This document shows, one piece after another, positions 15,371 to 17,216 of a DNA stretch of 64,000 bases (position 1 is its first letter; each line of letters begins with the position of its first letter). Under the pieces are notes generated by a model. It did no database searches. It worked only from the letters and a program-made list of their open reading frames with translations, and was not told where the DNA came from. A program made the position numbers and the translations under genes. The stretch covers positions 6,510,001-6,574,000 of the forward strand of contig NZ_CP109013.1 in the NCBI RefSeq assembly GCF_036226745.1, in the 5' to 3' direction. Source of the stretch: Streptomyces sp. NBC_00683. Lineage in GTDB: Bacteria; Actinomycetota; Actinomycetes; Streptomycetales; Streptomycetaceae.

Positions 15371-15446
15371 TGCACCTCCCGGTGCGAAGGCAGCGGCTAC
15401 TTCTCTCCCAGAAATCACGCCGCAGCCGTCCTGACCTCGGGAGGCA
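15371..15446 (+). ncRNA. Short Y-RNA-like element (Ro-binding stem without tRNA-like module)
   Basis: Bases 15378-15403 match 15461-15486 of the neighbouring YrlA gene at 23 of 26 positions, and the 3' side TCCTGACCTCGGG (15429-15441) matches the YrlA 3' side at 15576-15588 with one mismatch. The outer helix differs in sequence but is kept: CCTCCCG (15375-15381) pairs with CGGGAGG (15438-15444). Inside, the GTGCG loop strand, an AGG/CCT pairing and a GCGGC/GCCGC stem (15393-15397, 15419-15423) close a loop of about 21 bases. The tRNA-like half is absent. No separate promoter or terminator was recognised, so it may be processed from a common transcript with YrlA. Confidence 0.6.
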
Positions 15447-15450
15447 CAAG

Positions 15451-15598
15451 CGTCGGGGTGCCCGGTGCGCAGGCAACGGATACTTCCGGGATCTGAAGGT
15501 TGCGGGTTCGAATCCCGTCCGGCCACGGCCGGTAGCTCAATCGGACAGAGCATCAGACATGAGCCCGTCGCCGACTCCTGAACTCGGGCACCCCTTTT
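15451..15598 (+). ncRNA. yrlA: YrlA-class Y RNA with circularly permuted tRNA-like module
   Basis: The ends pair: GGGGTGCCCG (15455-15464) with CGGGCACCCC (15585-15594), followed by TTTT. An internal loop and CAGG/CCTG (15470-15473, 15577-15580) form the presumed Ro-binding stem. The inner part is a tRNA in permuted order: anticodon-like stem TCTGA/TCAGA (15492-15496, 15553-15557); T arm GCGGG-TTCGAAT-CCCGT (15502-15518); acceptor-like stem CCGGC/GCCGG closed by CACG (15519-15532); the invariant TA at tRNA positions 8-9 (15533-15534); and D arm GCTC/GAGC with GG in the loop (15535-15551). It lies 38 bases before the Ro60 (rsr) gene, the usual partner of bacterial Y RNAs. Confidence 0.88.
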
Positions 15599-15635
15599 CG
15601 CTGTGCCTTCTCCCATGAATTCGGGGGGAATTCAC

Positions 15636-17216
15636 ATGGCACGCTTCAATACCCGTCTCATCAGGCCCCGCGTCACCTCGCCCGTGAAGTCCACCGGGCG
15701 CACCGCGCGCAACCACCAGGGCGCCGTCGGACACCTCCGGGACAGCCGTTCCGAGCTCTTCCTCCTCGCGGTCGCGAACTTCGTGTCGCAGCAGACCTTC
15801 CACGAGGGCGGCGACGAGCGCGACAGCCGCTTCGCGACGCTGGTGCGGAAGCTCGCCGTCGAGGACCCGCAGTGGACCGCGGGGCTGCTGCACTGGCTGC
15901 GCCGCGAGGGCGGGATGCGTACGGCGTCGATCGTCGGCGCCGCCGAGTACGTGAAGGCCCGGCTCGACGCGGGCGCCGTGGACGGCCCGTCCAACCGGCA
16001 GGTCGTGGACTCGGTGCTGCTGCGTGCGGACGAGCCCGGTGAGCTGCTCGGCTACTGGACCTCGCGGTACGGCCGTGCCGTGCCCAAGCCCGTCAAGCGC
16101 GGCATCGCCGACGCCGTACGCCGGCTCTACAGCGGCAAGGCGCTGCTGAAGTACGACACCGCGTCCAAGGGGTACCGCTTCGGCGACATCCTCAACCTGG
16201 TGCACGCCGCGCCCGACCCGGCCAAGGCCTGGCAGGGCGAGCTGTTCCGGTACGCGCTGGACCGCAGGCACCACCCCGAGGACGCCGTTCCGCCCGTCTC
16301 GAACCGCGTCCTGACCGCCCACCGGGCACTGATGGACCTGCCGGTCGCAGAGCGTCGCGGCGTCGTCACAGGACCCGGTGGGGCGGACCGGCTGGCCGCC
16401 GCCGGCATGACCTGGGAGGCACTCGCGGGCTGGCTGCAGGGTCCGATGGACGCCGCGGTCTGGGAGGCGGTCATTCCCTCCATGGGGGCGATGGCGCTCG
16501 TACGCAACCTGCGGAACTTCGACGAGGCCGGGGTCTCCGACGCGGTCGCGGCCGAGGTGGCGGCGAGGATCTCCGACCCGGCGGCGGTCGAGGCTTCCCG
16601 GCAGTTCCCCTTCCGCTACCTCGCGGCCTACCAGCACGCGCCCTCGCTGCGCTGGGCCTACCCGCTGGAGCAGGCGCTCGGGCACTCGCTGGCGAACATT
16701 CCGGCGCTGCCCGGCCGCACCCTGATCCTCGTGGACCGTTCCGGTTCCATGTGGGCGCCGCTCTCGGACCGCTCGCAGCTGAACCGGGCCGACGCCGCGG
16801 CCGTCTTCGGTACGGCCCTGGCACTGCGGGCCGCGGACGCCGACCTGGTGGAGTTTGGCACGAGCAGTGCGCCGGTGTCCCACCGCCGGGGCGAGTCGGT
16901 CCTGAAGATCCTGGAGCGCTTCCACAGCCTGGGCGGAACCAACACCGTGGAGGCCGTGCGCAGGCACTACAGGAAGCACGAGCGGGTGCTGATCGTCACC
17001 GATGAGCAGGCCTCGTTCACGCACTACGGGGACGTCGCCGAGGGGATCCCGCCGACCGTTCCGGTCTACACCTGGAACCTCGCCGGGTACCGGATCGGGC
17101 ACGGCCCGTCGGGGAGCGATAACCGCCACACCTTCGGGGGTCTTTCCGACGCGGCATTCCGGATGGTGCCCCTGCTGGAAGCGGGCAGGAGCGCCGACTG
17201 GCCGTGGAACGGCTGA
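15636..17216 (+). CDS. rsr: Rsr, bacterial Ro60 orthologue (TROVE + VWA domains)
   Basis: A 526-residue ring-shaped RNA-binding protein. The N-terminal two thirds is the TROVE/HEAT-repeat domain (from NHQGAVGHLRD to about 350). The C-terminal von Willebrand A domain has a complete metal-ion site: DRSGS (D367, S369, S371), T in GGTNT (about 435) and D in VTDEQ (about 455). Ro proteins bind misfolded RNAs in the central hole and Y RNAs on the outer rim; in bacteria they work with 3'-to-5' exonucleases in rRNA maturation and decay under stress. The start is the ATG with GGGGGGAA upstream. Two Y-RNA-like genes lie directly upstream on the same strand. Confidence 0.95.
   Translation: MARFNTRLIRPRVTSPVKSTGRTARNHQGAVGHLRDSRSELFLLAVANFVSQQTFHEGGDERDSRFATLVRKLAVEDPQWTAGLLHWLRREGGMRTASIVGAAEYVKARLDAGAVDGPSNRQVVDSVLLRADEPGELLGYWTSRYGRAVPKPVKRGIADAVRRLYSGKALLKYDTASKGYRFGDILNLVHAAPDPAKAWQGELFRYALDRRHHPEDAVPPVSNRVLTAHRALMDLPVAERRGVVTGPGGADRLAAAGMTWEALAGWLQGPMDAAVWEAVIPSMGAMALVRNLRNFDEAGVSDAVAAEVAARISDPAAVEASRQFPFRYLAAYQHAPSLRWAYPLEQALGHSLANIPALPGRTLILVDRSGSMWAPLSDRSQLNRADAAAVFGTALALRAADADLVEFGTSSAPVSHRRGESVLKILERFHSLGGTNTVEAVRRHYRKHERVLIVTDEQASFTHYGDVAEGIPPTVPVYTWNLAGYRIGHGPSGSDNRHTFGGLSDAAFRMVPLLEAGRSADWPWNG

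Follow-up and report, generated by a model that had tools for sequence, protein, structure and literature searches.

A probable YrlA-type Y RNA with a circularly permuted tRNA-like module, and a second Y RNA beside it, upstream of a Streptomyces gene for a Ro60-like protein

The described systems closest to the locus reported here are the bacterial Y RNAs of the YrlA class (Rfam RF02553; Salmonella YrlA) and YrlB, a shorter Y RNA that lies beside a YrlA-type RNA and rsr and has no tRNA module. In YrlA, according to a review (PMC8394870), one stem holds the Ro60-like protein Rsr, the D, T, and acceptor arms are modified by DusA and TruB, and PNPase is tethered to the particle; the review also cites a structure of the Salmonella RNA (6CU1). 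A Salmonella study names an rsr-yrlBA operon (PMC7790460). In reviews and surveys, Y RNAs are named for Mycobacterium smegmatis (PMC4726728) and yrlA is predicted in mycobacteria (PMC9569102).

The window that we analyzed is a stretch of 64,000 nucleotides from Streptomyces sp. NBC_00683, in which a first-pass annotation had proposed a YrlA-type RNA just upstream of the Ro60 gene. This RNA, which we call Y3, occupies positions 15455..15598 of the plus strand, as do all window features below, and runs in the order terminal helix, inner helix, 3′ half of the anticodon stem, T arm, acceptor hairpin, D arm, and 5′ half of the anticodon stem. Its two ends (15455..15464 and 15585..15594) form the 10-bp terminal helix, the expected Rsr-binding stem, which appears in both the alignment fold and the anatomy of the window and is followed by TTTT at 15595-15598. 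The inner helix pairs GGC(A)ACGG (15472..15479) with CCGT(C)GCC (15565..15572), and the anticodon-like stem pairs TCTGA (15492..15496), its 3′ strand, with TCAGA (15553..15557), its 5′ strand. Between these last strands lie a T arm with the loop TTCGAAT (15502..15518), an acceptor-like hairpin CCGGC-CACG-GCCGG (15519..15532, with strands at 15519-15523 and 15528-15532), and, at 15533..15551, the equivalent of tRNA positions 8-9 (TA, 15533-15534) and a D arm made of GCTC (15535-15538) and GAGC (15548-15551). The elements of a permuted tRNA on which the annotation had relied are each found in the window at these positions: the T arm ahead of the D arm, the acceptor-like helix closed by a CACG loop, the anticodon-like stem that opens into the terminal helix, and the retained TA.

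The covariance-model search that the annotation had suggested gave a full-length match. RF02553 hit the window at 15476-15577 with 51.9 bits (E 7.5e-11) and aligned to the RNA end to end over model positions 1-114, and in the whole genome the same RNA was the top of five matches (E 2.7e-10). The score falls below the curated Rfam cut-off of 69 bits, which is a database rule and not a biological definition, and for this reason a scan at gathering level returned nothing in the window; such a scan gave no hit either in six other sequences (L044, L053, L166, L177, L221, and L222). The current Rfam YrlA model thus stays under its own cut-off on the scanned sequences of this branch. The end-to-end model match, the rsr gene on the same strand, the compensatory changes among relatives, and the conserved letters of the tRNA elbow all argue for the YrlA identity, and we consider Y3 very probably a Y RNA of this known kind.

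The rsr gene (15636..17216) encodes a protein of 526 residues and starts with an ATG at 15636, 37 nt downstream of Y3, which bears out the proposed linkage of the RNA to a TROVE gene. The product matches PF05731 with 53.1 bits (cut-off 23) over profile positions 289-351 of 442 only, and its residues 258-518 match the PDB TROVE-domain chains 9l5y/9kop (E 1.4e-29). It is the one TROVE match of the genome, and PADLOC and NCBIfam yielded zero matches for it. A PhoX-type gene lies upstream and an open reading frame with a TerD domain lies downstream on the opposite strand. Between Y3 and rsr, the presumed ribosome-binding site falls in the loop of an inverted repeat GAATTC-GGGGG-GAATTC (15617..15633), which may control rsr translation and which precedes rsr in all 10 relatives with upstream sequence that were compared. 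Several congeneric genomes, G065, G125, and G131 among them, retain only C-terminal fragments of rsr, which suggests gene loss.

Y3 does not stand alone. Directly before it lies Y2 (15375..15444), a second Y RNA that the annotation had left out together with the array setting; it has no tRNA-like module and shows the same frame as Y3 (CCCGGTGCG...GGCTACTTC...CTCGGG), and a consensus fold was drawn from an alignment of 43 of 70 Y2 RNAs. In relatives up to three Y RNAs follow one another, namely Y1 (with a tRNA-like module), Y2 (without), and Y3 (with), so that the array of the window comprises Y2 and Y3 directly before rsr. Among 150 congeneric genomes, 93 contain rsr relatives, some of them fragmentary. 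Of 80 named Streptomyces rsr loci, one (L111), which comes without upstream sequence, was dropped from the unit counts. Y units were present upstream of rsr in 79 of the 79 named loci with upstream sequence, as well as in the window. In these 80 loci together, all three units occur in 43, Y1 in 57, Y3 in 69, both Y1 and Y3 in 49, and a unit without a T arm in 70, a count that a few Y2 RNAs with an altered 5′ motif escaped. Common to the units are a terminal stem, a GGTGCG motif, a TACTTC-like motif, and CTCGG or CTCTGG on the 3′ side. The position of the units, all of them before the gene and on its strand, raises the question of whether Y3 belongs to the rsr mRNA as its cis-acting leader, a tRNA-like 5′ UTR of a T-box- or attenuator-like kind that regulates Rsr synthesis, and not a free Y RNA. 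A consensus scan of the window for sigma-70-type promoters and for terminators found neither, which weighs against a free Y RNA; the missing terminator fits a leader, as does the presumed ribosome-binding site inside an inverted repeat. We nevertheless regard a leader as quite improbable, given that every unit has a closed terminal stem of its own, that the YrlA model matches the window RNA, and that a second locus of the same genome carries two units with no rsr match in 3 kb. Loci with Y2 alone or Y1 alone also occur, so no single leader structure is conserved.

For Y3 as a YrlA-type RNA, the evidence for the fold comes from relatives. The minimum-energy fold of the window RNA by itself does not contain the full tRNA-like module, and a fold constrained to contain the T arm, the acceptor, the D arm, and the anticodon-like stem reaches -62.8 kcal/mol, 3.0 kcal/mol above the unconstrained one (-65.8); the tRNA-like fold therefore rests on comparison. 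In 36 of 46 class-I Y3 modules that entered the alignment, window included, 97.8% of 503 cells pair when the structure is given, compared with 32-44% in slid controls, and all five pairs of the anticodon stem show both-sided changes. None of 500 shuffles reached the observed pairing or covariation score, and 40 of 500 reached the count of extra pair types. The acceptor stem was excluded from this covariation count because 5-bp and 7-bp acceptors misalign, and for the same reason the RNAalifold consensus of 46 whole Y3 RNAs (of 49, window included) leaves the acceptor strands unpaired; it draws 38 pairs, 16 of them with both-sided changes. In the terminal helix, for which Rsr binding is a prediction, 6 of 10 pairs change on both sides among relatives. 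The annotation had named covariation in the rsr upstream regions of other streptomycetes as a check, and compensatory changes are indeed present in the stems. Of 126 modules, 125 retain GG in the D-loop stretch and all 126 have a T loop that begins with TTC, a count to be read in light of the T-loop pattern by which the modules were found. On whether tRNA-modifying or processing enzymes may recognize the RNA, as the annotation had supposed, the window copy gives a mixed picture: U55, the target of a TruB-type enzyme, is present, and since A and C, not U, follow the D-loop GG, a U20-type dihydrouridine site is absent. By a simple pattern, U occupies the U20/20a-like place in 34 of 57 Y1 and 30 of 69 Y3. 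Judged by this conservation, Y3 is probably a functional Streptomyces YrlA.

The module of Y3 varies between strains. A Leu-like D arm is found in 19 of the 69 Y3 RNAs, and 15 of those 19 have a long variable arm as well. Among 14 of these 15 sequences, each of the five pairs of the long arm is changed on both sides at least once and 91.4% of the cells of that helix pair; none of 500 shuffles attained any of five measures for the whole Leu-type structure. When 13 of 14 whole Leu-type RNAs were folded by RNAalifold alone, the Y stem came out differently. At E 1e-11, the Leu model matched 5 of 150 genomes in a family sample, all of them Streptomyces (1 of 17 genera); four of the matches score 100-117 bits and the fifth 54.8. 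Mapped onto a tree of 81 Rsr proteins, the long-arm label requires 11 changes, at least 8 of them being forced by well-supported branches, and the Leu label is somewhat clustered, with 8 of 500 shuffles as low. The Y3 label differs within sister pairs, among them L044/L050, L092/L096, and L080/L099. L044 and L050 are 100% identical in the T arm and acceptor, 40% in the anticodon-3′/variable part, and 72% in the D arm. The array of L050 is 97-100% identical to that of L053 over Y2, the 5′ arm, the T arm and acceptor, the D arm, and the spacer, and 81% and 84% identical in the anticodon-3′/variable part and the 3′ arm, respectively. The L050 rsr, by comparison, shows 96% identity to the L044 gene and 89% to the L053 gene. 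Because the L050 array resembles L053 and its rsr is closer to L044, this switch, judged from the sequences, looks like recombination between species, and so at least one change of the Y3 label does. Repeated fresh capture of tRNA-Leu, an alternative source of the patchy pattern, is unneeded for L050, whose array matches L053. The picture is of a Y RNA cassette with a module that is evolving in streptomycetes, Y3 being Arg-like or otherwise class-I-like in some strains and Leu-like in others. As a separate observation, the L074 Y3 (before an rsr at 1895) has a short tandem expansion of its acceptor/D-arm segment with repeated GATGTGTCAGAATTC-like units; it counts as Leu-like by pattern only.

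Y1 carries a further element. The RNAalifold consensus of 39 Y1 RNAs (of 47) contains the T arm, a 7-bp acceptor hairpin, and the D arm, and in addition a 5-bp hairpin UUCCA-loop-UGGGG that immediately precedes the variable region on its 5′ side. All four arms of a tRNA are therefore present in Y1, which is opened between positions 26 and 27, whereas Y3 is opened in the anticodon arm. In 38 of 53 Y1 modules that were aligned, the second-locus RNA of the window genome included, 100% of 798 cells pair and 9 of 21 pairs show both-sided changes, and 0 of 500 shuffles came as high on any measure. Within the anticodon arm of 57 modules, the three outer pairs are invariant and the two inner pairs are CA/TG in 47, GA/TC in 7, and CG/CG in 3. 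The loop has 7 nt in 56 of 58 modules (57 Y1 and the second-locus RNA), of which 50 read CUNNUAA; the loop counts leave out L038, with a 6-nt loop, and L039, with no arm. Across the 56 loops, U33 and A38 are found in 56, U36 in 54, and A37 in 51. The triplet at 34-36 is GAU in 17, CAU in 15, CUU in 11, GUU, GCU, and UCU in 3 each, and CCU and CGU in 1 each, with GCC and CCA as single exceptions. A second set of 69 Y1-model matches of at least 60.9 bits, from other loci that are partly of the same species, has the arm in 64 by a two-pair test, with U36 in 60 of the 64; the other five are Y3-type. The combination of U36 with A37 characterizes tRNAs that decode ANN codons and bear t6A37.

The exchange of modules and the anticodon arm of Y1 would both be explained if the tRNA-like modules were decoys or baits for enzymes that attack tRNA, such as anticodon nucleases and phage or toxin tRNases. 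Long-arm Leu-type and class-I Y3 alternate in close relatives, as the 11 label changes show, and Y1 loops vary at 34-35 between a constant U33 and A38. In PMC7790460, competitive inhibition of an anticodon nuclease is named as one possibility for Salmonella YrlA; the same study reports that YrlA fragments were undetected, from which it is concluded that the RNA is no substrate of that nuclease. Y3, moreover, has no anticodon loop, at least one switch is explained by interspecies recombination without selection, the Leu label is somewhat clustered on the tree, and Rsr has no PADLOC match. On this evidence we think a bait role unlikely.

The Y1 arrangement extends beyond Streptomyces. In a sample of 394 genomes from the class, 19 gave a Y1-model match at E <=1e-13: 14 belong to Streptomyces, and the remaining 5 represent five genera of a single other family. 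All five other-family matches lie upstream of, and on the same strand as, a gene for an Rsr relative (52-62% identity from residue 1). Y1-type arms also adjoin TROVE genes in other genera of the Streptomycetaceae. Among the 150 congeneric genomes, 51 reach 77 bits or more with the Y1 model, and each of the 51 has an rsr match. At a loose threshold the model was rejected as a marker, 295 of 295 genomes matching at E 1e-3. A large group of Y1-model matches near 71 bits is taken to be tandem tRNA genes, as shown for the window genome only (at 65.6 bits). Two matches of 72-73 bits, those of G010 and G030, adjoin rsr places.

Other Y-like loci were noticed along the way. The second Y locus of the window genome (G000:C1, about 8071315-8071573; L166 1316-1574) holds a Y2-like RNA and a module-bearing RNA, with no rsr match within the 3-kb stretch. 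Its Y2-like RNA has a hairpin that resembles a reversed T arm (GCGGGGATCGAACCCCGC), and its module-bearing RNA combines a Y3-like frame with a Y1-type module and the loop CUCUUAA. Away from rsr, on the minus strand at L177 1430-1690 (G000:C1, about 2902930-2903190), two permuted tRNA-like stretches stand in a row, with T arm, acceptor hairpin, and D arm and with weak YrlA- and Y1-model matches. The other family has extra Y-like RNAs (L221:1220-1301, L224:1962-2043, and L222:1780-1860) that have anticodon-like hairpins (loops CUCUCAA and CUUCCAA) and whose D arms differ from the Streptomyces ones. These are perhaps Glu-like, a reading for which similarity stayed weak.

How a permuted module might arise is suggested by tandem tRNA genes. 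Where two copies of one tRNA gene adjoin, the order across the junction is anticodon arm, variable region, T arm, acceptor 3′ strand, spacer, acceptor 5′ strand, and D arm. The Rfam YrlA model scores 38.4 bits on the tandem tRNA-Asn(GUU) pair of the window genome, and the Y1 model gives that junction 65.6 bits in a gap-free alignment of its positions 7-84 (of 84), against 40.1 for the next tRNA place. The module would have been born at such a junction, where the 3′ half of the first copy adjoins the 5′ half of the second and the acceptor strands could pair. Descent from a tandem tRNA junction is the most likely origin on the sequence evidence, a similarity that does not by itself prove the direction. 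The tRNA-Asn genes share their arm order with the Y1 module; they differ in having no Y stem, in having mature tRNA ends between the halves, and in the sequences of their stems. The same resemblance could be taken to mean that the elements are decayed tandem tRNA genes, two broken halves that came to lie beside rsr by chance, the more so as ARAGORN calls the second-locus RNA tRNA-Lys(CTT). This reading is hardly credible: compensatory changes in variable stems across species already contradict it, the Y stems and the TACTTC motif are conserved outside the tRNA part, and the arrangement recurs ahead of rsr both in further genera of the Streptomycetaceae and in a second family of the class.

Which tRNA a module of these Y RNAs resembles was assessed by simple similarity. 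Of 70 Y3-type modules, the one at the second locus among them, 18 scored highest as Leu, and Arg(ACG) led the next isotype by 48 to 34 in L044, 47 to 29 in L082, and 40 to 34 in the window; the other-family stretch L222 1501-1582 scores best as a permuted tRNA-Asn (40 versus 31 for the next isotype). By this measure most class-I modules fit no single isotype, so one may speak of a copy of a particular tRNA only for the Leu modules, a few Arg(ACG) modules, and one Asn module. A His-like assignment of Y1 was dropped, as Met, Thr, and others score equally. The Y3 module at L108:3822-3967 has a D arm that is somewhat like that of initiator tRNA (TGGAGCAATCAGGAAGCTCG), a weak resemblance (Met 30, Asp 29).

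Taken together, these observations are compatible with the following working. Y3 would be transcribed as a small RNA, its two ends forming the stem through which Rsr would be bound. Its other end would present a circularly permuted tRNA, with the split anticodon stem stacked on the Y stem, and the tRNA-shaped elbow could be recognized by tRNA-handling proteins, either a TruB-like pseudouridine synthase acting at U55 or PNPase in a tethering interaction (the RYPER model). The Ro particle would thereby be gated or directed to RNA decay. As a whole, the account of a Y2-Y3 array with Y3 as a YrlA-type RNA that bears a permuted tRNA and works in this way is, in our judgment, the best explanation, and one in which we have considerable confidence; we are less sure of the function of Y3, as a Ro-bound tRNA-shaped tether or gate, than of its identity. 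A broader and tentative idea, which we hold to be possible and on balance doubtful, is that actinobacterial Y RNAs are carriers of exchangeable permuted tRNA copies (the four-armed Y1 with its mostly ANN-type loop, and Y3 with its switching between class I and class-II Leu) that serve as tRNA baits or sensors loading the Ro particle, for instance in relation to the t6A synthase, anticodon nucleases, or tRNA quality control. For the role of the tRNA-like part in bacterial Y RNAs, the streptomycete arrays offer natural experiments: close relatives in which the same gene has either a class-I-like or a Leu-like module, an anticodon arm on a sister RNA, and tandem tRNA genes as a plausible source. 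Should Y1 be modified or bound in the manner of a tRNA, the function of the mimic becomes directly testable in laboratory Streptomyces.

A literature search in one library found nothing on Leu-like modules, on the anticodon arm of Y1, or on an array before rsr, and we provisionally regard these three as new variants. With Salmonella YrlA (RF02553), the streptomycete RNA shares the order of elements, the T arm, the acceptor hairpin, the D arm, the split anticodon-like stem, the Y stem, and the linkage to rsr; it differs in falling under the Rfam cut-off and in standing in an array of up to three RNAs directly before rsr, and the Leu-like class-II modules and the Y1 anticodon arm lie outside the Rfam consensus. 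Y2, for its part, is likened to YrlB by its anatomy: like YrlB it is shorter, has no tRNA module, and lies beside a YrlA-type RNA and rsr, and unlike YrlB it lies upstream of rsr.
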